From contig NZ_CP030082.1 of the NCBI RefSeq assembly GCF_006874645.1, positions 3,410,001 to 3,474,000 of the forward strand: 64,000 bases of DNA, written 5' to 3'. The notes under the pieces were generated by a model, which was not told where the DNA came from, ran no database searches, and was given only the letters and a program-made list of their open reading frames with translations. How positions within the stretch are numbered: the first letter of the stretch is position 1; every line of letters starts with the position of its first letter. This DNA is from Bdellovibrio sp. ZAP7 (GTDB lineage Bacteria; Bdellovibrionota; Bdellovibrionia; Bdellovibrionales; Bdellovibrionaceae). This document shows positions 2,244 through 64,000 of this stretch, piece after piece. The position numbers and the translations under genes were made by a program.

Positions 2244-2352
2244 CTAAACAACTCCTGGAGCACTAGAGCCATGCGGAATTCACGGCTCAGCGCAATATTT
2301 AATGCAAAATTCGGATTTGTGTGGCGACATGTTCCCTATTCAAGGCGGTAAC

Positions 2353-2991
2353 ATGTCCATGACATTTAAAATCCTTATTTCGACTCTTCTTTTGAGCTTT
2401 TCATTTTCTGCATTCGCAGGTGATGAGCTGCAAAATGGTGGCGATATTATCGCTTGCCCAGGTCTTGAAATTCCAACTTACAGATCTTTGGATCTTTACG
2501 AAGGCAAGATGGTTTACAACTTGGAACCGGCCTTGATCGATCAAAGTGACTATCGTGTGATCGTAAGTAAGCTGATTGATCGTATTGAAAAATTTGATAT
2601 GAACCGCTCCAAGCTTTACCGCGTGTTCTTAAAAAACTTTGCATCCGAAGTGCAAATGATTCCTGGTAGTGAATTCGGCAACATCAAGGACGAAGGATTT
2701 ATCACTCTTCCTCAAGGTTGCGAGCTTCAACAAGCCGCCGCACAATTTCGCAGACATACTCCAGATGGCATCAAGTATATTTTCAACAGCGCCATCTGGT
2801 CTAACATGAACCCGATGACTCGTGCCGCTTTAGTTTTGCATGAGATTGTTTACCGTGAGGCGCTGATGCCGAAAACAGGTCCGGCAACTTCTGCAAAGGT
2901 TCGCTATTTCACGGCGTATATCCATTCAACTAAAATGTTAAATGGAACTCGCGCAGACTATGCTAAAGCGAAAGCTTTTGCGGGTTTCTAA
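2353..2991 (+). CDS. secreted protein of unknown function
   Basis: The ATG at 2353 (another in frame at 2359) follows AAGGCGG and begins a clean signal peptide ending at SAFAG; an upstream in-frame ATG at 2302 lacks these features. The mature protein starts with an NGGD motif near a cysteine, a pattern I associate with small Bdellovibrio exported proteins. It ends with a helix containing ALVLHEIVYREAL. That helix resembles the LLLHEYLGL helix in the secreted protein at 53713-54846, so the two may be distant relatives. A full HExxH zinc motif is absent, so I do not call a protease. Confidence 0.7.
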   Translation: MSMTFKILISTLLLSFSFSAFAGDELQNGGDIIACPGLEIPTYRSLDLYEGKMVYNLEPALIDQSDYRVIVSKLIDRIEKFDMNRSKLYRVFLKNFASEVQMIPGSEFGNIKDEGFITLPQGCELQQAAAQFRRHTPDGIKYIFNSAIWSNMNPMTRAALVLHEIVYREALMPKTGPATSAKVRYFTAYIHSTKMLNGTRADYAKAKAFAGF

Positions 2992-3005: not shown

Positions 3006-3030
3006 ATCGCTAAGAGAGTTTCTTAGCGAT
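3006..3030. terminator. 10-bp perfect hairpin between convergent genes
   Basis: ATCGCTAAGA (3006-3015) and TCTTAGCGAT (3021-3030) form a perfect stem with a five-base loop. It includes the stop codon of the minus-strand RCC1 gene (3010-3012) and lies 14 bases after the plus-strand stop at 2991. No T-run follows on either strand, so it may act in mRNA 3'-end protection rather than as a classical intrinsic terminator. Confidence 0.55.
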
Positions 3031-5322
3031 CACAAAAGACCCTGTGCTGCCGCGAGAGTCGCCCGGCAAAAGAGTCCAGCTGCCAGGAATTTGTACGGGA
3101 CTTGAGCGTAACGTCGTATCCCCAAGACCCAACTCGCCCTGAGCGTTCGTTCCCCATACCCACAAAGTCGAATCAGTTTTTACTGCGGCAGAGAATCCAT
3201 TACCTGCATATATCTGTGACCACGAGCCTGGAACTTGAACAGGAGAAAACGTGTTTACGCCGATCCCTAAATTTCCGTTGCGGTTTCCGCCCCATGCCCA
3301 ATAAGTACCATCAGATTTTTTAGCCAGGAACATATCGTAACCACCGACAACCTGTGACCACGAACCTGCAATTTGCACAGGACTTGAAATTCCGGTTGGA
3401 GGTTGCAAGTGGCTAACAGCGCCGAAGGTATTATCCCCCCACGCCCACAATGTGCCATCGATTTTAATACCTGCGCACGCGTTTTGGGCCGCGGTGACTT
3501 GAGTCCAGGAGTCCGATCCAATTTTGGTAAAAACCTTTTTATCCACTGAGGTACCATCACCCAATGCACCCGCATCATTTGCTCCAGCCGTCCACAATGA
3601 CCCGTCAGTTTTGATCGCTATCGAGTGGCTCCAACCAGCGGCCGCTTGTTTCCAAGGACCAGCAACAGTAACTTGTACAGGTGCACTGTTATTCGTGGTG
3701 GTGTTAATTCCCAACTGCCCATTGGCATTGAATCCCATGCCATACATGGCACCTGCCGAATCAATCAAAATATTATGCCATCCACCTGCCGTAACTTGTG
3801 CCCACGATGTGGTGCCGATCTTAGTCGGAGTTATTAGGGTAGTATTGTTTGTCCCAGCTCCACCAGAGGTGCTATATCCCCAGGCCCACAAGGAACCGTC
3901 GGATTGAATGCCGATACTGTGCCACAGACCCGCAGAAACTTGAGACCATGAACTCGTACCCACTGCAGATACCTGTACCGGACTGTTGTAGCTTGTATAG
4001 CCGCCGGTACCTAGGCAGCCGTTGCTACCATCTCCGAACGCCCAAAGTTTTGCGGAGGTATCAATTGCCAAAGAAAAGTTACGGCCCAATGCAAACTGAG
4101 ACCACGTTGTTCCGATCGCTACGTTCGCAGGGCTGTAGAACCATTGATTTGTAATACCGTTTCCAAATTCACCATAAGTGTTTGATCCCGTTGCTTTGAC
4201 ATTCGTAGCAGTCAGCAGCAACCAATGAAGGCCGTTCATTACCGTCGGCATCATGGTGAAAGTTCCAGTGATCTGATTTGGAGAAGCTAAAACTTTTGTT
4301 AAAGTGCCATACTGACCGAAGGCTGCATTACCCCAAACATACAAACGCGCGTCTGTTCGTAGAGCCAACGCATGCGTCGGACCGGCACTGACTTGAGTAA
4401 AGGAACCCGTGATATTTCTGATCTGCGTAGGACTTTCTCCGAACTCACCCCCATAATAACCATAGTTATAATAGGTGCCGTCCCATCCCAGATTGTAATC
4501 TCCCACACCCCATCCATAAAGAGCCCCGACAGAGGAGATTGCTAGAGAGTACTGGTAGCTCGCGGCCACCTGACTGAAACTGGTCCCAGCCAATATTTGC
4601 ACAGGAGATTTGATAGAAGTTCCACTGGCATTGTTGTTTCCGACTTGTCCATAGTCATTCGCGCCCCAACCAAACATCGCCCCAGTCGATGTAATCCCGG
4701 CAGAGTGGAACACTCCCGCGGCGATCTTTGTCCAAACCGTCGATGCAGAAACTTGTACTGGAGAACTTTTATCGGTTGTAGAACCAATCCCTAATTGGCC
4801 ACTACTGTTTTCTCCAAACGCCCACAAATATCCACTCGTATCCAAGCCCAGTGTATGCGAATCACCAGCAGCGATTTGTGACCAGGATGCGGGACCCGTC
4901 GTAATTTGCGTCAAGGAAGACTTTGATGTGGCTGTGCTAATATTTAAGCCCAACTGACCACTGGAATTTCTTCCCGTGGAAAAAAGTTTACCATCGGACA
5001 TCAACGCGACGGCATGTTGACTACCGAAACCAATTTTCACTGGCGAAGTGCTAATGCTGATATTGGTAGGACTGGACATATTCGTAAGATTGCCCAATCC
5101 CAAATTTCCGCTGGTATTTTGCCCCCAGGCATAATACGGCGATGAGGATTTCTTTTTCCAGAAACTGTGAGTGAAAATCTGCGCATCGGCTTCCTCAGGA
5201 GCCACCACGGTTAATGCCCCAATAACAGAACTCCACAGACCTGCTTGCACGGTGGCTCCGCTTGCTAATAGCTGAGCAATGAACTCCCTGCGAGATGTTT
5301 TTCGATTTTCAGAATCACCCAT
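3010..5322 (-). CDS. Tat-exported RCC1-repeat beta-propeller protein
   Basis: 770 residues. The start at 5322 is an ATG with AAAGGA seven bases upstream; the TTG two codons earlier is less likely. The N-terminus has a twin-arginine signal (SRREFIAQLLASGA), so the protein should be exported folded. The rest is about a dozen RCC1/ATS1-type repeats of roughly 50 residues, each with WAWGxNxxGQLG and SWSQVxAGxxHSxAI signatures, enough for about two seven-bladed propellers. Bacterial RCC1 proteins are mostly of unknown function and the fold binds proteins or ligands. Its start overlaps the glycosyltransferase stop by eight bases, and the fibre gene lies upstream in the same direction, so the three genes probably form one operon. 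A role on or with the fibre is inference. Confidence 0.85.
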   Translation of the reverse strand: MGDSENRKTSRREFIAQLLASGATVQAGLWSSVIGALTVVAPEEADAQIFTHSFWKKKSSSPYYAWGQNTSGNLGLGNLTNMSSPTNISISTSPVKIGFGSQHAVALMSDGKLFSTGRNSSGQLGLNISTATSKSSLTQITTGPASWSQIAAGDSHTLGLDTSGYLWAFGENSSGQLGIGSTTDKSSPVQVSASTVWTKIAAGVFHSAGITSTGAMFGWGANDYGQVGNNNASGTSIKSPVQILAGTSFSQVAASYQYSLAISSVGALYGWGVGDYNLGWDGTYYNYGYYGGEFGESPTQIRNITGSFTQVSAGPTHALALRTDARLYVWGNAAFGQYGTLTKVLASPNQITGTFTMMPTVMNGLHWLLLTATNVKATGSNTYGEFGNGITNQWFYSPANVAIGTTWSQFALGRNFSLAIDTSAKLWAFGDGSNGCLGTGGYTSYNSPVQVSAVGTSSWSQVSAGLWHSIGIQSDGSLWAWGYSTSGGAGTNNTTLITPTKIGTTSWAQVTAGGWHNILIDSAGAMYGMGFNANGQLGINTTTNNSAPVQVTVAGPWKQAAAGWSHSIAIKTDGSLWTAGANDAGALGDGTSVDKKVFTKIGSDSWTQVTAAQNACAGIKIDGTLWAWGDNTFGAVSHLQPPTGISSPVQIAGSWSQVVGGYDMFLAKKSDGTYWAWGGNRNGNLGIGVNTFSPVQVPGSWSQIYAGNGFSAAVKTDSTLWVWGTNAQGELGLGDTTLRSSPVQIPGSWTLLPGDSRGSTGSFVIAKKLS

Positions 5323-6448
5323 GCGCAAATCCTTTCAAAGATTCACGAACTTTCTGACCAACATCATCCCAACTTCCAAACTTTTTCTGGCGAAACAATT
5401 GAACTGAATTATACCAAGGAGAGGTGTCGCCTTCCAAGGCCCAAACAAAGTAAGGCAGCGCAGGGACCAGCACCCAGGTCTTGATACCACTTGCTGCACT
5501 TGCATGCGCAACGCTGGTGCAAGAGCTGATCACCAAATCCATTTCGTTTAGAGCAGCCAAAGTGTCATCCCATGTGGCGAGATGGGGCCCTAAATCCATG
5601 ATGTCATCGTTTAAAGAAACTAAATTGTCATCACGTTGAAAGCTGTAAAGCTGAACTCCGGAAACATCATGCAGTCCTGTAAGAATTTCTGGAGGAAAAC
5701 TGCGAAATTGTTGATGTTCGAATCCTGGATTGCCCGCCCAACGAATTCCTACCTTCAATTTTCCTTTACCCACATTATTAATTAGGCTTTTCCATTTTGC
5801 TGATTGCTGGGGCCTTGGTGATAAATACTTGTCACCGTTAAGATCCTTGTGCTCATACCCTAAGGCCAAAGCAGCCGACATTCCAGGCAGCCAGGAATCA
5901 TGATAAACTCCCGTCGCTACTTCCCGTTGCATGACTGCAGAAACATAGGGAGAGGTTGCAAACATGGTTGCCAGTTTTGGATGACAAACCACAGTCACCT
6001 TGCAGTCATATTTTTCGACTAAGTCCTTACAGAATCGAAAATGAATGATTTCATCTCCGAAACCACCTTCCAGTACTAAATGCACACGATGGCCTCGCCC
6101 TGTTTCTGGAGTCCATAAAGGTTGGGACGAAGGCAAACGTGGATGGCCATAGGTATTTAACGTGCGACCGAACTCCAAAAGAGCCATACCTTTTTGCATT
6201 TGATTTCTTTTAAGCCAATGCCAACCATGATTAAACAAAACACGGGCGTCGTCTGGAGCCAATTTTATTAATTCATTAGATACAGCAAAAGATTCTTCCT
6301 CACGGCCGACGGCGTTTAGGAAAACTTGCAAGTCTAAACGTGCAGCTACGGGATTTTGTTCAGTGGCGGACTTGAGATGATTTATGACTGTGTCCGTGTC
6401 ACCAAACTTCTCCAATAGTTCTTGAATAAAGCTGACTTTCTTTTCCAT
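5315..6448 (-). CDS. TPR domain fused to GT9-like glycosyltransferase
   Basis: 377 residues, no signal peptide. Residues 1-100 look like degenerate tetratricopeptide helices (NPVAARLDLQVFLNAVGREEE, LAPDDARVLFNHGWH). The remainder resembles the C-terminal part of GT9 heptosyltransferase-like proteins often fused to TPRs. The typical end segment DLVISSCTSVAHASAASG, then WVLVPALPYFVW, then DTSPWYNSVQLFRQ is present, as is GGFGDEIIHFRF near residue 128, where the donor site starts in such proteins. It lies 22 bases after the fibre gene and overlaps the RCC1 gene. The simplest reading is a cytoplasmic enzyme that adds sugar to one of these exported proteins before secretion, but neither donor nor acceptor is visible in the sequence. 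Confidence 0.75.
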   Translation of the reverse strand: MEKKVSFIQELLEKFGDTDTVINHLKSATEQNPVAARLDLQVFLNAVGREEESFAVSNELIKLAPDDARVLFNHGWHWLKRNQMQKGMALLEFGRTLNTYGHPRLPSSQPLWTPETGRGHRVHLVLEGGFGDEIIHFRFCKDLVEKYDCKVTVVCHPKLATMFATSPYVSAVMQREVATGVYHDSWLPGMSAALALGYEHKDLNGDKYLSPRPQQSAKWKSLINNVGKGKLKVGIRWAGNPGFEHQQFRSFPPEILTGLHDVSGVQLYSFQRDDNLVSLNDDIMDLGPHLATWDDTLAALNEMDLVISSCTSVAHASAASGIKTWVLVPALPYFVWALEGDTSPWYNSVQLFRQKKFGSWDDVGQKVRESLKGFAHG

Positions 6449-6470
6449 GACTAAAACTCTATCCTTGATT

Positions 6471-9400
6471 TTAGTAACCTGTCACCCACGCGGCATAAAT
6501 GTCTGTTCCCATAACGACGAAGGTATACATGGTATGGGTACTTGCGGTTGTAGCTCCATGGTCTGGAGGTAAGTGTACTGTAAATCCAGCATGAGTGAAA
6601 GCACAAGTTCCCGACGTCGCACCTTTTACGGCAAGCATGTATGTACCGCCATCTTTCATTCCTGACAGAGTGAAAGCTCCGCAACTGGCAGATGTGTATT
6701 GCAAATTACCAGCGGCAAAACTGATGCTGGTGCCGGCATTGCTTGTGGTTTTGCTGGTGATAGTTTTTTGAATCTCAATATTTTGCGAAGAATCCACCAC
6801 CATGGCCGAGCCATTGTTCGCCATCAACGTTAAGGTGTTGTCAGTAGATCCGACTGTGACGGCTCCTGCATTTCCACCATTGATCAAAAATCCAGTGGAT
6901 GCATAGTTCGTACAGCCAATATTTCCAGAAGCATCAAACGTAATCATTTGAGCGATACCGCAATTATAGGCCGTAAAGTCACCGGAGCCATTGGAAGCGA
7001 TCATTCGATTCGCAGTAATCGACGTTAAGCCCGTACCACCTTTTGATACTGGCACGGCTGACGGGAAATTCGCTGGATCTGCAGCGATTACCCCCGAACT
7101 TACAGAGATACCAGAACCGACTTGGACTACACCCAGAGCACCAGTTGTCGCTGCTGAAACATTCACAACAGGAGCTGCTGCAGTACCAGTAATTGAAATC
7201 GGAGCATTGCCTGTTACTCCCGTAACTGTACCTGTAGGAGCATTAATCCACTGTAAACCACCCGCAGTCGAAGAAAGGATCTGACCTGCAGTTCCGCGAG
7301 CAATCCGCACATTGTTGGTGCCATCTGAAGTCACCAAATCGCCTGCCGTTGTTAGAGGAGAAAGAGCATCAAACGCCGCCGTCTTAGTAGTTTGACCGGT
7401 ACCACCTTTAGCAATCGCCAAAGTTCCTGAAATCGAAGAGGCCACGACACCCGTTAATTGCGAGCCATCAACAGCCGGCAATTTTGCAGAACCATCCAAT
7501 TGAACAATTTTATTTGCAGTCGTTCCGGCATCAACAACCAAAGTATTCGCACTCAGTGTCAAGCCGGTGCCATAAGAAAGACCCAGGTTCGCACCCGTCA
7601 CATTCAGCGGAGCCGCGGTACCTAAAGCCGCGTAAGTGCCTGCGCCCGTTCTTTGTACGATACCAGTGCCAGTGATGGTAGTTAAGTCTGTCGCCGTTGG
7701 AGCAGCCCACTTGATTCCATTCGCTGCTGCTGCGTCGACCATCAAAACATGACCATCAGTTCCACCCACTGCCAACGAAACACTGTTAGTTCCATTGTGG
7801 GTTACGATTGAACCTTTCGCTGCCAGCGGAGAAAGTGCATCAAAGCCTGCGGTTTTAGAAGTCGCACCCGTACCACCTTTAGCGATAGGTACTGCTGACG
7901 GAAAATTCGCCGGATCCGCACTGATTGTACCCGAGCTGACTGCGATACCTGACCCCACGGTCACTACTCCGGCAGTAGATGTCGTTGCTGCATTCACAGA
8001 TACCACCGGTGTCGTCGTACCCGTCACCACGATTGGCAGAGTTCCTGACATACTCGTTACGCCGGTCGATGGAGCATTGATCCATTTCACGCCGTCCGTC
8101 GTATCAGCCGACAAAAGCTGACCTGAAGTTCCTGGTGCCAAGCGTACGTTATTTGTGCCATCGAAATAGATGATGTCACCTTTGGTTGTCAGCGGAGACA
8201 AAGCATCAAAACCCGCAGTTTTAGATGATTGGCCTGTACCACCTTTAGAGATCGGAACCACGGCAGAGAAATTCGCAGGATTCACCGCCAAGTTCGCAGC
8301 ATCGACACTGACCAAGCCTGCTGTCACTGACAATCCAGTACCAACTTGCATGATACCTTTGGCAGATGTGGATGCGTCACCAGGCGCTGAACCCGTCGCA
8401 TCGTCAGCCATTGTCCATTTAGTACCATCGTATTTAAGAATTTTTCCTGATGCGATACCAGTTGTATCAACTGTCGCGCCTTTGATTTTATCAACTGACG
8501 TCGCACCTTGCGTACCACTTACGTCACCCACCAACGAACCAGAGAAGTTCGTTACTGTCGTCGGAGAATTAATCCAGGCTAAACCGCCTGCAGTCGAAGA
8601 AAGAATTTGTCCCGCAGTACCACGAGCAATGCGCACGTTATTGGTACCATCGGAAGTCACCAAATCACCCGCTGTCGTCAACGGTGATAGAGCATCGAAA
8701 CCCGCAGTTTTAGAAGACTGTCCCGTACCACCTTTAGAGATGGGAACCACGGCAGAGAAGTTGGCTGGGTTCACAGCCAAGTTCGCTGCATCGACACTGA
8801 CCAAGCCAGCAGTCACAGATAGGCCTGAACCAACCTGCATAATACCTTTTGCAGATGTAGATGCATCACCAGGGGTAGAACCCGTCGCATCGTCAGCCAT
8901 GGTCCATTTAGTACCATCGTATTTAAGAATTTTTCCTGATGCGATACCAGTTGTATCAACGGTTGCGCCTTTGATTTTATCAACTGACGTTGCACCTTGC
9001 GTACCACTTACATCACCGACTAAAGAACCACTGAAATTCGTAGCTGTCGCAGCACTTGCTGCAACCACATTCGTCAACTGAGATCCGTCAACGGCAGGCA
9101 ATTTTGCGGAGCCATCCATTTGCACGATTTGATTTGCAGCTGTACCGACATTTACTTTCGCAACACCAGATGCAATCGTAATACCTGAAACTGCAGCACT
9201 CGTGTCGAATTGTACGATACCTTTTGCAGAGTATGAAGAATCCACTGGCGAGCCGCCCGTCGCGTCGTCTGCCATCACCCAATTACCCGATTGATACTTC
9301 AAAATTTTACCGTCAGCAATACCTGTCGTTACAACTGGAGAGCCCTTGATTTTATCAACGGAAGTCGCACCCTGCGTGCCGCTGACGTCACCCACCAAGG

Positions 9401-11522
9401 AACCGGTAAAATTCGTAGCCGAACCTGCAGTGGTTGCAGAAGAAGCAACCACACCCGTCAATTGCGAACCATCCACTGCTGGAAGTTTATTGCCAGTGTC
9501 CATCGCCACGATTTTACCCGTTGTGACACCAGTATCGACAACCAAAGAACCAGCACTTGTTGTTAAGCCCGTACCATATGCCAGACCAATACTTGAACCC
9601 GTCACATTAATCGGAGCCGTCGTACCTAAAGTTGCGTAAGTACCCGCACCCGTCCTTTGCACGATACCTGTACCAGTGACAGTTGTAAGATCCGTTGCAG
9701 TTGGAGCTGCCCATTTAATGCCATTTGCAGCTGCTGAATCCACCATCAACACATGACCATCAGTAGAGCCCACTGCCAACGCCACGTTGTTAGTGCCGTC
9801 ATGAGTGATGATACTGCCTTTCGCCGCCAACGGTGAAAGAGCATCAAAGCCCGCTTGTTTCGTCGACTGACCGGTACCACCTTTATTAATCGGCAAAATA
9901 CCGGATAAAGAAGCTGCCACGATATTTGTTAGGGCAGAACCATCCACCGCTGGCAATTTCGCAGTGCCGTCCAACTGCACGATTTGATTAGCTGCGGTAC
10001 CCGCATTCACTTTCGCAACACCAGCCGCAACCGTCATACCCGAAACAGCCGCGCTTGTATCAAACTGCACAATGCCTTTTGCTGAATATGATGAATCAGA
10101 TGGAGTACCACCTGTCGCATCGTCAGCCATTGTCCACTTAGTACCATCGTACTTAAGAATTTTTCCAGACGCGATGCCTGTTGTATCAACGGTAGCACCT
10201 TTGATTTTATCAACTGACGTCGCACCCTGCGTACCGCTAACGTCACCAACCAACGAGCCAGAGAAGTTTGTCGCCGAACCCGCTGTTGTAGCAGACGAAG
10301 CGACAACTCCTGTCAATTGCGAACCATCCACTGCTGGAAGTTTCGCCGAACCATCTAATTTAACGATTTGATTCGCAGCTGTACCTGTATTTACTGTCGC
10401 GACACCCGCCACGACTGTCATTCCCGAAGTCGCCGCATTCGTATTAAATTGCACAATACCTTTTGCGGAATATGAAGAGTCCACAACTGTAGATCCCGTG
10501 TCATCGTCAGCAAACACCAAAGTACCGGAAGAGTATTTCAAAACTTTTCCGTTCGCGGCACCGGTAGTAACAACAGACATGCCTTTAACTTTATCTACGG
10601 AAGTTGCAGATTGAGTTCCGGAAACATCACCAGTTAAAGAACCCGTGAAGTTTGTAGCCGAGCCCGCCGTGGTAGCAGATGTTGCTGTTGTCGCCGAAGA
10701 AGCAACGATACCCGTCAATTGCGAACCATCAATCGCTGGAAGTTTTCCGGTGCCATCCAACTTGACGATTTGATTCGCACCCGTACCGGTATTTACTTGC
10801 GCCACACCGTTGGTCACGACGATACCTGATGTTGCTGCATTCGTCAGGAACTGAACCAAGCCTTTAATAGTATATGAAGCATCCAACGAAGAGCCACCAC
10901 CTGCTGGCGTATCACAAGCAAAGGCCGCACCATTGTAAGTCAGGAACTGACCTGTCGAGCATGTGGATAGATCTGTTTTTCGAACGTAATCCGTGGCGAC
11001 TAAGCCCCCCAGCTTCTCCGCTGAGACGGCGTTAGTTGCATAAGGTACAGAACGAATTTCAGAAGCTGGAACGATGTGATTCCAACCTGCAGTGCCGTTT
11101 GGATTGAATTGCACATCCAGGAATCTTTTATCAGAAGCAGACAACAAAAATGTTCCGCCCTCGGCACAAGAAACTGTGCCGGAGTTATTCATAAACTCAT
11201 AAACCTTGGACGATGAATTTGGAAAGTTAGCAGTTCCATTTCCGATAGCGACGTCAAATAATCCATCCGATGAAATAGGAATCAAATCCGCTTGCTCACG
11301 CCACAGCGTACAGTTCGGATTATTGCCGTGAGATTTATCAACCATGATCGAGAAACTAAACGATGCCATCGTGAAGCCAGGACCGCCGCCCGTAGCATTT
11401 GTAATACGGCCTTGATACGAAAAAGTCGTGGGAGCAGATTGAGCGACTCCAAACGTAAACAGAGACGTGAACAGAATCACGATTCGTATTTTACAGAATC
11501 TTGAGTTTGTGTAATCTCCCAT
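6471..11522 (-). CDS. giant repetitive surface fibre protein (MAT/tail-fibre-like)
   Basis: 1683 residues from the ATG at 11522, which has a GGAGG ribosome site; a longer frame to 11648 is rejected. A signal peptide (to about residue 30) precedes the TTFSYQGRIT module and an IRSVPYATNA segment, the same N-terminal layout as the gene at 60114. The shaft is built of glycine, serine, threonine and alanine-rich repeats: five copies of GDVSGTQ-ATSVDK-KG, and five copies of KGGTG followed by FDALSPL plus one variant. The C-terminal 130 residues are unique and contain two well-spaced cysteines. Such repeats are typical of phage tail fibres and of the mosaic adhesive trimer fibres of Bdellovibrio used in prey contact. 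No S74 chaperone domain is apparent at the C-terminus. It heads a three-gene operon. Confidence 0.85.
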   Translation of the reverse strand: MGDYTNSRFCKIRIVILFTSLFTFGVAQSAPTTFSYQGRITNATGGGPGFTMASFSFSIMVDKSHGNNPNCTLWREQADLIPISSDGLFDVAIGNGTANFPNSSSKVYEFMNNSGTVSCAEGGTFLLSASDKRFLDVQFNPNGTAGWNHIVPASEIRSVPYATNAVSAEKLGGLVATDYVRKTDLSTCSTGQFLTYNGAAFACDTPAGGGSSLDASYTIKGLVQFLTNAATSGIVVTNGVAQVNTGTGANQIVKLDGTGKLPAIDGSQLTGIVASSATTATSATTAGSATNFTGSLTGDVSGTQSATSVDKVKGMSVVTTGAANGKVLKYSSGTLVFADDDTGSTVVDSSYSAKGIVQFNTNAATSGMTVVAGVATVNTGTAANQIVKLDGSAKLPAVDGSQLTGVVASSATTAGSATNFSGSLVGDVSGTQGATSVDKIKGATVDTTGIASGKILKYDGTKWTMADDATGGTPSDSSYSAKGIVQFDTSAAVSGMTVAAGVAKVNAGTAANQIVQLDGTAKLPAVDGSALTNIVAASLSGILPINKGGTGQSTKQAGFDALSPLAAKGSIITHDGTNNVALAVGSTDGHVLMVDSAAANGIKWAAPTATDLTTVTGTGIVQRTGAGTYATLGTTAPINVTGSSIGLAYGTGLTTSAGSLVVDTGVTTGKIVAMDTGNKLPAVDGSQLTGVVASSATTAGSATNFTGSLVGDVSGTQGATSVDKIKGSPVVTTGIADGKILKYQSGNWVMADDATGGSPVDSSYSAKGIVQFDTSAAVSGITIASGVAKVNVGTAANQIVQMDGSAKLPAVDGSQLTNVVAASAATATNFSGSLVGDVSGTQGATSVDKIKGATVDTTGIASGKILKYDGTKWTMADDATGSTPGDASTSAKGIMQVGSGLSVTAGLVSVDAANLAVNPANFSAVVPISKGGTGQSSKTAGFDALSPLTTAGDLVTSDGTNNVRIARGTAGQILSSTAGGLAWINSPTTVTNFSGSLVGDVSGTQGATSVDKIKGATVDTTGIASGKILKYDGTKWTMADDATGSAPGDASTSAKGIMQVGTGLSVTAGLVSVDAANLAVNPANFSAVVPISKGGTGQSSKTAGFDALSPLTTKGDIIYFDGTNNVRLAPGTSGQLLSADTTDGVKWINAPSTGVTSMSGTLPIVVTGTTTPVVSVNAATTSTAGVVTVGSGIAVSSGTISADPANFPSAVPIAKGGTGATSKTAGFDALSPLAAKGSIVTHNGTNSVSLAVGGTDGHVLMVDAAAANGIKWAAPTATDLTTITGTGIVQRTGAGTYAALGTAAPLNVTGANLGLSYGTGLTLSANTLVVDAGTTANKIVQLDGSAKLPAVDGSQLTGVVASSISGTLAIAKGGTGQTTKTAAFDALSPLTTAGDLVTSDGTNNVRIARGTAGQILSSTAGGLQWINAPTGTVTGVTGNAPISITGTAAAPVVNVSAATTGALGVVQVGSGISVSSGVIAADPANFPSAVPVSKGGTGLTSITANRMIASNGSGDFTAYNCGIAQMITFDASGNIGCTNYASTGFLINGGNAGAVTVGSTDNTLTLMANNGSAMVVDSSQNIEIQKTITSKTTSNAGTSISFAAGNLQYTSASCGAFTLSGMKDGGTYMLAVKGATSGTCAFTHAGFTVHLPPDHGATTASTHTMYTFVVMGTDIYAAWVTGY
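8190..9010 (-). repeat. tandem 489-bp coding repeat in the fibre gene
   Basis: Blocks around 8190-8520 and 8680-9010 are near-identical with an offset of exactly 489 bases (163 codons); for example the shared word CGCATCGTCAGCCAT starts at 8398 and 8887. A third, more distant copy of the same word starts at 10116. The offset keeps frame, so the number of units can change without breaking the protein. Confidence 0.85.
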
Positions 11523-12557: not shown

Positions 12558-13349
12558 TTAAGTTGTGGACGAATCAATTTGAGATGCAATGACCGAAGGC
12601 GACTCAAAGTCGCGATCGTTCACATCAGTCAGCGGATAAAGATACATTGATAAATTATAAACTTCCGTTTTAGGGCCGTCTTCTAAAAGCAAACACATCT
12701 TGCGACGAAATTGCGTCAACATTTGTTTTGCTTCCTCGATCTTAGCGACATTGATCGGCATGGTGATGGTTCCGAAATGACGTTTCTCCATCGGCACCGT
12801 ACGCAAAGCTTCTTCAGACTTTCGTAAATTGGCTATGTGACCTTCCACGATGGCAGAACTTGGAATTTCCGAAGTCGTCGTTAACTGTGAAGGAATACGC
12901 AGCCAGCGGCCGTTCTTCATTTTGATCACGCCTTGCGCTTCCAACAGATTCAGACACTCTTCCGTTTTTTCCACCGACAGCGCCAGACGTTTTGCAATCC
13001 ACTCTGTGGAACTTTCAAAATCGTCAGTCTTCATCAAATTCAAAATCGCGTAAGGCTCCCAGCTGGTGATCAAACGCAATTCCTGATTTTCCAAAACTTT
13101 TTGGAAGTTCATACGTTTTGCACGAACCGTGACGAAACTTGAAAGAGTGACTTGCTCTTCCTGAGTTAAACTAAGACCGTAGGAAATTCTGTTGGAGTAG
13201 TGATCACTGAGTGGACGGCGTTCATGAAAGATTTCATTCAAACGGCCGGGAGAGATTCCCGCTTTTTGCGCCAGCGCACGCATCGAGAAACGCGGATTTT
13301 TTTTCTGCATCTCTTCCAGTTTAGCGCTCAAAAAACGGTTCAAAGTCAT
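12558..13349 (-). CDS. TIGR02147/DUF4423-family regulator, copy A
   Basis: 263 residues from the ATG at 13349, supported by AGGAGA seven bases upstream. The N-terminal 80 residues carry a helix-turn-helix of the Cro/C1 kind (FSMRALAQKAGISPGRLNEIFHERRPLS). The C-terminal two thirds hold a second winged-helix-like part (WIAKRLALSVEKTEECLNLLEAQGVI) and a conserved regulatory region ending in the YNLSMYLYPLTDV motif. This is the architecture of the TIGR02147 paralogous family, abundant in Bdellovibrio and Fibrobacter. It lies 35 bases after the paralog at 13385-14215 and both are probably co-transcribed. DNA targets are unknown. Confidence 0.8.
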   Translation of the reverse strand: MTLNRFLSAKLEEMQKKNPRFSMRALAQKAGISPGRLNEIFHERRPLSDHYSNRISYGLSLTQEEQVTLSSFVTVRAKRMNFQKVLENQELRLITSWEPYAILNLMKTDDFESSTEWIAKRLALSVEKTEECLNLLEAQGVIKMKNGRWLRIPSQLTTTSEIPSSAIVEGHIANLRKSEEALRTVPMEKRHFGTITMPINVAKIEEAKQMLTQFRRKMCLLLEDGPKTEVYNLSMYLYPLTDVNDRDFESPSVIASQIDSSTT

Positions 13350-13384
13350 GGGTGTCTCCTGGGGAGACACCATAACTTAGTGTT

Positions 13385-14215
13385 TTAAACTTTATCAAGC
13401 TCAACGCGTGGCGACTCCGCCAGATTCGCTCCAGCAGCGGTCTTAGAGAGATGCTCTGGCACTGACAGAGGGAACATTTGGATGTTGAGAGAGTAGACTT
13501 CACTTTGTGTACCCTGCTGCAACAAGCGAAGGATACGCCCACGGAAGCGCTCTATCATGCGCTCTGCCACGGGGATCTGCTGCGGATTTACGGTCAACGT
13601 GACACCTGTGTAACTCGAGTTCATCTCGAGCTCCATCGCCTGGCTAGCCTTTTCCAGATGCTTTTTATAATAGTTACGGCTTTCCTGATTTGCACATTCG
13701 TAAGAAGTGATCAAACGGCGGTGGACAATTTCAATGCCGCGCTCTTCATTACGAATCAATTCCATGCGCTCAAGATTTTCCAAGCCTTTTTCAACTTGCT
13801 CAGGCGTCAAAGCCAAACGTTCTGCAATCCAGTTTACGTCGTCATTGCCATTGGCAATTCTTAGCAAGTTCAAAATCGCATACTCTTCCCAGCCACCCAT
13901 CAGGTTACCGCTCTTCACACCCAACACGCGGTCGGAATTAAAGCGACGTGATGTTACAGAGATATAAGATCTCAATTGCTGACGTTCATCTTGATTAAGC
14001 CCCAAGCCAGTGGAGATCTTTTCAAAATAAAATTCGCTAAGGGGGCGTTTGCCACGAATCAGTTCGCTCAAACGACCTGGCGTGATGCCGATTTTGTAAG
14101 CAACCATACGCAGTGAAATACGACGATTGGATTTACGAAGCTCTTCGAATTTGTTCATCATGAATTCTGTAATAGTCTGGTTTTGCATGAACACAGTATT
14201 TAACCAAGAAGTCAT
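13385..14215 (-). CDS. TIGR02147/DUF4423-family regulator, copy B
   Basis: 276 residues as drawn; an ATG at 14188 would give 267 residues and matches the start of copy A better, but neither start has a clear ribosome site. It aligns with copy A over its whole length: HTH at about residues 35-60 (ISLRMVAYKIGITPGRLSELIRGKRPLS), a second winged-helix region (WIAERLALTPEQVEKGLENLERMELI), and the closing VYSLNIQMFPLSV motif. Copies A and B are an old tandem duplication rather than a recent one. It is divergent from the kinase gene at 14357, with which it shares a 141-base intergenic region, so it may influence that gene. Confidence 0.8.
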   Translation of the reverse strand: MTSWLNTVFMQNQTITEFMMNKFEELRKSNRRISLRMVAYKIGITPGRLSELIRGKRPLSEFYFEKISTGLGLNQDERQQLRSYISVTSRRFNSDRVLGVKSGNLMGGWEEYAILNLLRIANGNDDVNWIAERLALTPEQVEKGLENLERMELIRNEERGIEIVHRRLITSYECANQESRNYYKKHLEKASQAMELEMNSSYTGVTLTVNPQQIPVAERMIERFRGRILRLLQQGTQSEVYSLNIQMFPLSVPEHLSKTAAGANLAESPRVELDKV

Positions 14216-60113: not shown

Positions 60114-63100
60114 ATGCGAATCGGTAAAAAAATCATAACTGTGTTTGCGCTGATACTGCTCGGGTTTATAGCATCTGTAGCAACAGCGTCTCCACAAAAA
60201 CTCACATATCAGGGTCGTATCGTTGATTCCACCGGACATGCATTAAACTACAACGACGTCGCATTTAGATTCCAAATTACGTCCACCGATGGATTGTGTG
60301 TTCTTTATTATGAAGAGCGCCAACACATCAACATGCAAAACTCTGATGGTATCTTTGATATTGCGATCGGCGATGGCAATGTGATTTATGCTGCTGGCGG
60401 AGCGAATAAACTTTCTGATTCTTTCACAAATGGAATTACTCATAACTGTTACGGCGGTGGTACTTGGGCTGCCTCTTCGACTTCTGAACGTCTTTTGAAA
60501 GTAAGTTTCCATGACGGCACCGGTTGGCAGGCAGTGGATCCGGCTAACACGATTCGCTCCGTTCCGTTCGCAATGTCATCTTACTCCGCACAAACTTTGG
60601 CGGACAAAACTATTAATGACCTAGTATTGAAAGCTAGCTTAACTTCTTGTGCTGCCGGCCAAGCCTTAAGCTGGAATGGCACGACGTTCTCTTGCGTCGC
60701 AACTTCCACAGGTACACTGACAGGTGTGACAGCGGGCACAGGTCTTTCTGGTGGCGGCACATCTGGCACAGTGACTGTTTCTCTTGCGAACTCTGGTGTG
60801 ACTGCTGGTACTTACGGTTCAGCAACTCAAGTTCCAGTGGTTGCCGTAGATGCCACAGGTCGCATTACTTCAGTAACTCCGACAACAATCACTGGTATCG
60901 CTCCGGGCGGTTCTGCTAGTGGTGATTTGAGCGGTTCATACCCTTCGCCAACAATTGCGAACAACGCTGTGACCAGTGCAAAAATTGCTGACGGCACTGT
61001 TGTCGCAGCCGACATGGATTTCACGGGTACGAACGTTGCTACATCAAGCATCGTGATCAAAGACTCCACAGGTAAATTTGCAGAGTTTGCATGTTCAACT
61101 GTTGGTCACGTTGCAACTTGGACTGCTGTGGGTTGGGGTTGCCAAGCTCCTTCAACAACAGATGCGACGAAGTTGCCTTTGGCTGGCGGTACAATGGCTG
61201 GCGCGATTGACATGAACAGTAACAACTTCACAAACATTGGTTTCATGACAATGTCTGCGAACAAGAGCCTTCATGTTTCAAACAATGCTGCAGACCCAAG
61301 CTTGGTTGCTGCTGATAAAGGTAAAATCTGGTTTAACTCGACAACGAATGAATTGAAATACTGGAACGGTACGACTGCCGTTGCTGTAGGTTCCACAGGT
61401 GCTGCAATCACAGACTTAACAGGTGATGTAACTGCAACAGGCCCGGGCTCAACGGCAGCAACTATTGCTAATAGCGCTGTAACTAATGCCAAAATGGCCA
61501 ACATGGCTTCTTATACTTTGAAAGGAAATAACACGGGCTCTGCGGCAGCGCCGACAGATGTTACGATTACTTCTCTTCAAGGTACGACGGCCACAACATT
61601 TGCAGCAGGTAATGACTCCCGTATCACGGGCGCACTTCAATCGGGCGCATCTGCAGGTGGCGACCTGACGGGTACTTATCCAAACCCTACAGTCGCGTCT
61701 GGTGCAGTTACTTCTGCGAAAATCGCTTCTGGAACTATTCTTGGAACGAACATGGATTTCACGGGAGCAAACAGCGGAACAACTGGAATGGTTTTAAAAG
61801 ATTCCACTGGGAAGTTCGCGAACTTTACATGCTCCACAGCGGGTGACGTACCGACTTGGACAGCTTCAGGTTTTTCTTGTCAGACGCCTTCACCACTTCT
61901 GCCTTCACTTGCTGACGGCAAAATGTGGGTGGGTGTAACAGGCACAGCAACAGCAGTGACGATGTCGGGTGATGCGACTTTGTCAAATGCAGGTGCTTTG
62001 ACTCTGGCAAACGTTGTTTCCGCAGGAACTTATACAAAAGTAACTGTAGATACAAAAGGTCGTGTTACTACCGGCGCTAACTTAGCGGCTGGTGATATCA
62101 CAACTGCTTTGACGTACACTCCTGTGAATAAAGCCGGTGACGTGATGACAGGATCTTTGGGTCTTGGCAACTTCACAAATGCAACGGAAGCAACTCTTAT
62201 TACTGGTTGGACTGCTGCTGATAAAGGTAAAACTTGGTTCAATACTTCAACGAACCAAGTAAAATACTGGGATGGTTCTGCCGCTCAAGCTTTGGGAGTT
62301 TCTGGGGCGGGCTTAACGTCACTGAATGGTGAATCTGGTTCGGCGCAAACTTTTGCAACTCCAGGTACTTCTGGAACAGCTCCTGCTTGGTCTTCAGCTT
62401 CCAATGCTCATACATTGAATATCCCAATGGCTTCGGCCGCTGGTGTGACTGCGGGTCTTATCAGCAAAACTGATTACGATGCTTTCACGGCAAAACAAGC
62501 TGCAGGTAACTATGTTACTGCTTTGACTGGTGACGTAACAGCTTCAGGCCCAGGCTCTGCCGCTGCGACTATCGCTGCCAATGCCGTGACAAGTTCTAAA
62601 ATTGCTGACGGCACTATCGTTGGCGCGGATATGGATTTCACTGGCGTAAATGCTGGTACTGCGAATCTTGTTATTAAAGATACATCCGGTAAATTCGCAA
62701 ACTTTGGTTGTTCAACTGCAGGGCACGTTGCCACTTGGTCTGTGACCGGTTGGTCTTGTGCTGCCCCTACTCCACTTATGCCTTCACTAGCTAACGGAAA
62801 AATCTGGGTTGGGGATGGTTCGAATGCCGCAACGGCGGTGAGCGTAAGTGGCGATGCGACACTTGCTAATACAGGTGCTTTGACTCTGAAAAACACGGGT
62901 ACTGCAGGTACATATTATAGTGTGACAACGGATGCTCAAGGCCGTGTGACAGCAGGTGCTGCTTCGTTGGTGGCTGCTGACATTCCAAATCTTGATTGGG
63001 CAAAAATCACTTCTGGCAAACCAACATCCCTTTCAGGTTATGGAATTACTGATGGCGTTCAAAATGCTGGTGGCACTCCAAGTGTTGCTACAGGTTTGGA

Positions 63101-64000
63101 TGCAAGTAAACCAGCTGCTGGTACTGCCGGTCGCATTTACGTAGCGACAGATACGCAAAAAATCTATTCTGACTCTGGTGCTGTATGGACAGTTGTTGGT
63201 GCTTACACTTCACTGACTGGTGCAACTGGCGCCTTCGTTAACGGCGGTAACTCTTTCGGTACGGCCGCTTCCCTTGGAACAAACGACAGTAATCAATTAA
63301 CTCTTAAAACAAACAACACAGATCGTATCACGATCGACACCGCTGGTAACGTAGGTATCGGTGGAGCGCCGGCTTATAAAGCTCATATCAGAAATGGTGT
63401 TCTTGCCGTTAAAGGTGACGCTGGTTCATCGAATGCTCCATCCACTGAATCCGTGGCTTCTTTCGATAGAGAAGCTGTTGGCGGTGTCGGTATGAACATG
63501 TACACAATGAACGCCCAACCTGCGACAATCTATTTCGGTAATACTTCGAGTGCGCAGCAAGGTTCTATCAAATACCAAGTTGATGCTTCCACTCCAGCGA
63601 ATCAATATATGGCTTTCCGCGTGAACTCTGCTGAAAGAGCGCGAATCACTTCGACTGGAAACTTTGGTATCGGGACAACTACGCCAACTTCTCCTTTACA
63701 TGTAGCTGGCACGATGACTAATACCAGTGGTGCACCAGCATTGAACTACTTCTACGGAACTGCAGATCCGACGGCGGCTTCCACGGCCGTATTCTATGGC
63801 AGCAATGGGTCTGTTGCTAAATTTGACAATGCCAACATGTCGGGCGCCCAAACTGTCGGTGCTGCCGGTATCGTTGAACAAGGTGGAACAGGCACTTTGG
63901 GTACGGCCGTTGGTGTAGAAGGTTATCTTACGAAGTACGGCACAGGAAATGTTACTAACTCCTATGGCGTATTCTCACACATGAAAAGCAGCGCCGCAGG
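60114..64000 (+). CDS. second fibre protein, cut by the window end (tail-fibre-like)
   Basis: The frame starting at the ATG at 60114 (AGGGA six bases upstream) is in phase with the coding reading at 64000 and gives at least 1295 residues with no stop seen. A signal peptide to about residue 26 is followed by LTYQGRIVDSTG and IRSVPFAMSSY, the same N-terminal module as the fibre at 6471. The shaft has three copies of a 75-residue unit with MDFTG, KDSTGKFA-F-CST and TW--GW-C motifs. Near 63300 the text turns to LTLKTNNTDRITIDTAGNVGIG, typical of the region before an S74 chaperone domain in phage tail fibres. The C-terminus, and so any S74 domain, is outside the window. Confidence 0.85.
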   Translation, partial: MRIGKKIITVFALILLGFIASVATASPQKLTYQGRIVDSTGHALNYNDVAFRFQITSTDGLCVLYYEERQHINMQNSDGIFDIAIGDGNVIYAAGGANKLSDSFTNGITHNCYGGGTWAASSTSERLLKVSFHDGTGWQAVDPANTIRSVPFAMSSYSAQTLADKTINDLVLKASLTSCAAGQALSWNGTTFSCVATSTGTLTGVTAGTGLSGGGTSGTVTVSLANSGVTAGTYGSATQVPVVAVDATGRITSVTPTTITGIAPGGSASGDLSGSYPSPTIANNAVTSAKIADGTVVAADMDFTGTNVATSSIVIKDSTGKFAEFACSTVGHVATWTAVGWGCQAPSTTDATKLPLAGGTMAGAIDMNSNNFTNIGFMTMSANKSLHVSNNAADPSLVAADKGKIWFNSTTNELKYWNGTTAVAVGSTGAAITDLTGDVTATGPGSTAATIANSAVTNAKMANMASYTLKGNNTGSAAAPTDVTITSLQGTTATTFAAGNDSRITGALQSGASAGGDLTGTYPNPTVASGAVTSAKIASGTILGTNMDFTGANSGTTGMVLKDSTGKFANFTCSTAGDVPTWTASGFSCQTPSPLLPSLADGKMWVGVTGTATAVTMSGDATLSNAGALTLANVVSAGTYTKVTVDTKGRVTTGANLAAGDITTALTYTPVNKAGDVMTGSLGLGNFTNATEATLITGWTAADKGKTWFNTSTNQVKYWDGSAAQALGVSGAGLTSLNGESGSAQTFATPGTSGTAPAWSSASNAHTLNIPMASAAGVTAGLISKTDYDAFTAKQAAGNYVTALTGDVTASGPGSAAATIAANAVTSSKIADGTIVGADMDFTGVNAGTANLVIKDTSGKFANFGCSTAGHVATWSVTGWSCAAPTPLMPSLANGKIWVGDGSNAATAVSVSGDATLANTGALTLKNTGTAGTYYSVTTDAQGRVTAGAASLVAADIPNLDWAKITSGKPTSLSGYGITDGVQNAGGTPSVATGLDASKPAAGTAGRIYVATDTQKIYSDSGAVWTVVGAYTSLTGATGAFVNGGNSFGTAASLGTNDSNQLTLKTNNTDRITIDTAGNVGIGGAPAYKAHIRNGVLAVKGDAGSSNAPSTESVASFDREAVGGVGMNMYTMNAQPATIYFGNTSSAQQGSIKYQVDASTPANQYMAFRVNSAERARITSTGNFGIGTTTPTSPLHVAGTMTNTSGAPALNYFYGTADPTAASTAVFYGSNGSVAKFDNANMSGAQTVGAAGIVEQGGTGTLGTAVGVEGYLTKYGTGNVTNSYGVFSHMKSSAA
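60918..62770 (+). repeat. three copies of a 75-residue unit in the second fibre
   Basis: Units near 60918-61150, 61660-61890 and 62530-62770 encode similar blocks: GDL-G-YPxPTIA or GDVTASGPGSAAATIA, then AVTSAKIADGT, MDFTG, KDSTGKFA, CST-GHVATW and GW-C--P. Each ends with two cysteines about 15 residues apart. Borders are approximate. Confidence 0.7.

Follow-up and report, generated by a model that had tools for sequence, protein, structure and literature searches.

A mosaic adhesive trimer fibre, a TPR glycosyltransferase and a Tat-signalled RCC1 protein encoded together in Bdellovibrio: a candidate two-part prey-contact fibre with an exchangeable head

Prey recognition in Bdellovibrio is thought to be set by mosaic adhesive trimer (MAT) fibres, and single deletions have little effect. 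In the window analysed here, a 64,000-nucleotide stretch of the genome of Bdellovibrio sp. ZAP7, the gene of one such fibre stands in a row with genes for a cytoplasmic glycosyltransferase and an exported RCC1-repeat protein, raising the question of what this enzyme and this second exported protein do beside a fibre, and which of the two exported proteins the enzyme modifies. All three genes are on the minus strand, and direct reading of the junctions gives spacings of +22 bases between fibre and transferase and -8 bases between transferase and RCC1 gene, the latter being an overlap (ATGGGTGA). The features are as follows:

6471..11522, minus strand: MAT-family fibre of 1683 aa, ATG at 11522, with a Sec-type signal and phage-fibre-like repeats (NF053851, 2.3e-38)
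10974..11471, minus strand: conserved N-terminal MAT domain, residues 18-183 (NF053851 match)
6474..6791, minus strand: domain at the C-terminal tip of the fibre, suggested to be the head's socket (tip alignments A2/A6)
5315..6448, minus strand: cytoplasmic TPR + GT-B (GT9-like) glycosyltransferase of 377 aa (AlphaFold model, phage homologues)
3010..5322, minus strand: Tat-signalled RCC1-repeat protein, 770 aa from ATG (PF00415, 1.2e-90; 14 repeats)
5182..5322, minus strand: twin-arginine signal peptide of the RCC1 protein (SRREFI ... ADA, from sequence)
5149..5181, minus strand: QIFTHSFWKKK, opening the mature RCC1 protein, a candidate docking ("plug") peptide (motif common to heads with unrelated bodies that follow this fibre tip)

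The first-pass annotation had described this layout correctly: open reading frames and junction reads reproduce its three genes and their gaps, its exported repetitive fibre of 1683 residues is a MAT with a Sec-type signal, the predicted fold bears out the TPR-GT9-like nature of its cytoplasmic enzyme, and its twin-arginine exported protein with about a dozen RCC1 repeats carries a visible Tat signal and 14 repeats. It did not see that the fibre belongs to a known family, that the transferase-RCC1 pair is shared with phages, or that the RCC1 protein is one of many alternative heads. Promoter and terminator scans of the trio returned only chance-level matches. The parts of the trio are of known kinds; the literature searched contained neither their combination nor the idea of a plug-in head.

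The fibre is placed among the MATs by the domain that follows its signal peptide, which matches NF053851 with 131.5 bits against a cut-off of 60. Its Pfam and NCBIfam matches include no S74 C-terminal protease/chaperone domain, and the chain, 24% of which is Ser+Thr, ends in an A2-type tip, a domain present in 64/369 Bdellovibrionota genomes. Searches returned no confident solved structural relative for this tip. Assignment to the Bd2133 type was rejected, as the initial match (1.8e-10) was due to a beta-helix capping motif and the tip HMM does not match Bd2133. Surface display and a part in prey contact are the published role of the chimeric MAT fibres of B. bacteriovorus, and the Bd2133 crystal shows that a short peptide can be accommodated by a MAT tip, in a pocket at the trimer interface (PMC10769870); since homology to Bd2133 is unsupported, this pocket serves as an analogy only for the present tip. 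The text of that paper makes no mention of RCC1, glycosyl, operon or neighbour. Elsewhere in the window a second MAT of the same tip class begins (about 60159-64000, plus strand) and runs past the window end, and the next gene, just outside the window (L326, 661-1587), encodes an exported LamG protein.

No glycosyltransferase family appears among the Pfam and NCBIfam matches of the transferase at E <= 1, and its assignment comes from the AlphaFold model (pLDDT 88), in which TPRs resembling those of OGT (residues 6-99) are followed by a GT-B domain (residues 114-377). The nearest fold is GT9 (3tov, Z 20.7 over 249 residues; WaaF, Z 19.5; TibC, Z 18.0), and the LPS heptosyltransferases WaaF and WaaC are among the best fold matches; a lipid or glycan acceptor would likewise be compatible with a GT9-like fold. 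Phage homologues share 40-46% identity with it, and 53 residues are invariant across six Bdellovibrionota and seven phage transferases. The transferase tree groups the window copy with viral ones in a supported clade and splits the Bdellovibrionota into two groups; it mixes viral and Bdellovibrionota clades and shows no direction of transfer.

The RCC1 protein matches PF00415 in 12 stretches, and by eye 14 repeats can be counted (13 by pattern scan, plus one at 'WAWGDNTFGAVS'). By repeat number it would probably form two 7-bladed propellers, on which the fold model (pLDDT 58) gives no confirmation, being too poor to be kept for blade geometry. Its signal, TSRREFIAQL...EEADA, contains the Tat-type S/T-R-R-x-F-L/I motif (TSRREFI), TatC is present in the same genome, and QIFTHSFWKKK follows directly after the ADA cleavage site. 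The protein contains 22.5% Ser+Thr. In the Bdellovibrionota the Tat motif is found in nearly every complete RCC1 protein examined, and likewise in nearly all transferase-linked ones; a mature N-terminal motif of the SFWKKK type nearly always accompanies it, and one protein has a Sec-type signal. The same genome encodes two more large RCC1 proteins (L174, 6866-13078; L175, 11415-14756), with lipoprotein-like starts and no Tat signals.

The trio is rare and is kept together even as its order shifts. The transferase occurs in 15/369 Bdellovibrionota genomes, in about 11 of which an RCC1 gene is adjacent or within a few genes and in about nine of which a fibre is at the locus. The order fibre-transferase-RCC1 is seen in the window and L051, fibre-transferase-MT-RCC1 in L040, fibre-RCC1-transferase in L049, fibre-RCC1-RCC1-transferase in L039 and fibre-MT-transferase-RCC1-FkbM-transferase-RCC1 in L041. 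L166 has RCC1-transferase-MT as well as fibre-RCC1, all within 19 kb; in L048, transferase-FkbM-transferase-RCC1-sulfotransferase is flanked by MATs; in L172, fibre-sulfotransferase-RCC1-RCC1 adjoins transferase-MT-transferase; and the short contigs L053 and L054 have RCC1-transferase. Exceptions to linkage are G035 (transferase far from RCC1), G055 and G364, with G349 on a short contig. Some of these loci also include modifying genes of glycan type (MT, FkbM, sulfotransferase, GT25). This linkage exceeds chance by far, and the proposal that the genes belong together, which stood to fall had they been unlinked in relatives, survived. One genome (G019) has a single fibre with two transferases and two RCC1 genes. 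The majority of MATs have no adjoining transferase, and the HD100-like genome G006, with 21 MATs, has no transferase match.

Two further groupings were seen in the course of this survey. TIGR02147/DUF4423 regulators and an exported family of about 230 aa stand side by side repeatedly across the genus (window 2302-2991 and 12558-14215, L047, L166), several times by RCC1/MAT loci. The bacterial contig L050 carries RCC1, several TPR transferases, a sulfotransferase and sulfate-activation genes, resembling a glycan-sulfation island.

The transferase-RCC1 pair is shared with tailed phages. The transferase query alone retrieved 228 viral contigs, and 80 of these were retained; 75/80 contain an RCC1 ORF, directly adjacent in 69/80, although the contigs are not independent events because many are related. 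Where at least 900 bases were available upstream of RCC1 (32 loci), a fibre-tip ORF lies within 1.5 kb before it in 27, and each of the 12 phage tip-domain members scanned matched PHROG tail fiber families. In one viral locus (L057) the tip domain and RCC1 repeats are fused in a single ORF; Synechococcus phage BUCT-ZZ01 has the order fibre, small ORF, RCC1, transferase; and in S-SRM01 RCC1 genes and a transferase stand behind a long tail fibre, with sulfotransferase and other glycan genes. Phage fibre and RCC1 are often separated by a conserved ORF of about 165 aa (for example in viral loci L063, L068 and L142), which may encode an assembly or adaptor protein. The window RCC1 protein matches phrog_4219 at 6e-63. 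RCC1 proteins of phrog_4219 were detected by mass spectrometry in virions of phage W70 (PMC11370258), and the RCC1-domain protein of GAP32 is a structural protein found in the virion by the same means (PMC5259590). PHROGs files phage RCC1 families (phrog_4219, phrog_7220, phrog_16766) under DNA, RNA and nucleotide metabolism, despite members being virion proteins by mass spectrometry and their genes adjoining tail fibres; a description of phage RCC1 as a receptor-binding protein was not found in the literature searched. Twin-arginine motifs, hydrophobic signals and FW near the start are absent from all 47 complete viral RCC1 ORFs. As for the fibres themselves, homology between MAT tip and phage fibre tip is unsupported (hhalign probability 9%), and the phage collection gave one weak, partial match to the window fibre.

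The position behind this kind of MAT is occupied by different proteins in different genomes. In G011, the relative closest in synteny, flanks and MAT are retained at 71-80% DNA identity, and a single exported protein of 705 aa replaces transferase and RCC1 at the syntenic site. Of 90 MAT ORFs of this tip class, 54 adjoin a gene that a crude signal score marks as exported, the rest including some ended by a contig edge and some with a transferase between. The bodies identified among these heads are NHL, Kelch, DUF5122/Rax2, SBBP, LamG and DUF7483, and many of the mature N-termini are alike (AFRSNVGFWQ, AQRINIGFWK, AQVTGLGAFWQQ, AQMIPHGLWRKR). A strict FW within residues 16-65 is found in 21/54 heads and in 4/187 background exported ORFs from 400 kb of sampled sequence; about 60% of heads are without it. 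Because a looser pattern had been defined after looking, only strict FW on loci collected once the idea existed counts as a test, and on this held-out set the motif occurs in 15/37 non-redundant heads against 4/187 in the background (p 2.8e-10). Heads whose bodies are unrelated tend to have more similar plugs the more similar the tips of their fibres are (rho 0.22-0.25, permutation p <= 6e-4), a correlation that may partly reflect remaining genome relatedness. The motif is borne by heads with Tat and by heads with Sec signals, and motif-bearing RCC1 genes apart from any MAT seen occur in L045 and L047. In G006 one fibre-head pair of this kind is present, with an NHL protein as head of a 1964-codon MAT (682-688 kb), and no exported FW gene follows the other MATs examined in a scan in which some MAT ends were mis-picked.

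We propose, at roughly even odds (probability about 0.5), that the locus encodes a two-part prey-contact fibre, in which a MAT stalk carries an exchangeable RCC1 head that is docked on its tip and modified by the transferase. The MAT protein would form a trimeric stalk exported via Sec, and the RCC1 protein would be made separately as its head, folding in the cytoplasm, where the TPR transferase encoded alongside probably glycosylates it. We infer that Tat is used because a head that has already folded and been modified in the cytoplasm, as would happen in a phage-infected cell, needs export in the folded state. Once outside, the mature N-terminal peptide QIFTHSFWKKK may dock the head on the fibre tip, an arrangement that would be analogous to the T2-type phage fibre with its separate gp38 tip. 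Transferase and RCC1 are a single cassette also found in tailed phages, standing there behind tail-fibre genes; the predator versions of RCC1 have a Tat signal and a candidate plug peptide that are missing from the phage ones. The site following such a MAT would act as a slot that in other genomes is filled by NHL, Kelch, DUF5122 or SBBP propellers or by LamG.

The annotation had taken fibre, propeller and enzyme as one functional set, and half of this stands: the pairing of propeller and fibre is supported by the repeated linkage, the same set in phages and the N-terminal motif common to heads after this tip. Its other half, that the enzyme decorates the fibre, has fared less well. On that version the transferase would glycosylate the Ser/Thr-rich MAT in the cytoplasm before Sec export and the RCC1 protein would bind the glycosylated fibre, for which speak the Ser+Thr content of the fibre and its place immediately ahead of the transferase in the window, L040 and L051. 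In phages, however, the transferase tracks RCC1 and not fibres; the doubling of both genes beside one fibre in G019 follows the same pattern; the RCC1 protein is itself nearly as rich in Ser+Thr; and most MATs, including all 21 of G006, do without the enzyme. We consider glycosylation of the fibre unlikely, and the transferase most likely acts on the RCC1 protein because this is its constant partner. It is less probable still that the enzyme is a GT9-type surface-polysaccharide transferase of a variable surface island whose position between fibre and RCC1 is meaningless, an idea that draws on the WaaF and WaaC fold matches and has against it the near-constant RCC1 adjacency in phages, the almost equal match to the protein-modifying TibC and the OGT-like TPRs that precede the catalytic domain.

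The reading that comes nearest to the docked head, though we still doubt it, takes the FW motif for a sorting or outer-surface secretion signal and the RCC1 protein for an independent adhesin merely co-expressed with the fibre. The motif-bearing RCC1 genes of L045 and L047, which are not beside a MAT, and the presence of the motif on both Tat- and Sec-using heads are as such a signal would have it; enrichment just after one MAT tip type, variation of the motif with tip type and the result for the other G006 MATs argue instead for docking. That the cassette is a prophage remnant with no function of its own in the predator would account for the same pair in tailed phages, but there are no other phage genes nearby, the frames are still open, Tat signals and FW motifs are found in the Bdellovibrionota copies only and the MAT genes belong to the predator, which leaves this already disfavoured idea very improbable.

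Beyond this locus, it is conceivable, at somewhat under even odds, that predatory bacteria possess a general plug-and-socket system, in which one class of MAT tip serves as a socket for separately exported heads (many beta-propellers and lectin folds) that share an N-terminal plug, so that a one-gene swap would change prey range; the RCC1-transferase version would be the one shared with phages, with Tat exporting the folded, glycosylated head. If many fibres bear separately encoded heads, the recognition repertoire would be larger than the list of fibres and could be read from genomes via the plug motif. Phage RCC1 genes filed under DNA metabolism would gain a likely role as tail-tip proteins with their own glycosyltransferase, and a reason is suggested for the use of Tat, namely the export of a surface protein folded and modified in the cytoplasm. 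Because G006 has a single fibre-head pair, the docking idea is directly testable in this HD100-like genome.

Several known systems resemble parts of this arrangement. FlmG, a TPR-GT-B enzyme, modifies Caulobacter flagellins in the cytoplasm and binds its acceptor by the TPR (PMC7591256). The window transferase has the same N-terminal TPR and C-terminal GT-B order in its model and is likewise predicted to be cytoplasmic; FlmG acts on surface proteins before export, as would the window enzyme, whose acceptor would not be flagellin. TibC, a protein-modifying heptosyltransferase (4RAP), glycosylates a surface adhesin; it shares the GT9-like fold, with about 11% identity, and is without TPRs of the window kind. 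The phage pair of phrog_4219 RCC1 protein and TPR transferase is homologous to the window pair, with a tail fibre nearby in both, the phage RCC1 proteins lacking the signal peptide and FW motif that the predator protein has. The window fibre belongs with the published MATs by its N-terminal domain; tips there are part of the fibre chain, and none of the solved tips could be matched with confidence to that of the window fibre. The closest parallel to a docked head is gp38 of T2-type phages, a separate protein that sits on the tip of the gp37 trimer, attached through its N-terminal part, and that is partner-specific and not freely interchangeable (PMC12892980). Like gp38, the window RCC1 protein is encoded by a separate gene close after the fibre on the same strand, with the transferase between them; gp38 has a glycine-rich PGII fold and no export signals, whereas the window head is an exported protein of RCC1 repeats that carries a short candidate plug and is accompanied by a transferase, and it is the motif enrichment and the tip-plug correlation that suggest N-terminal docking for it too.
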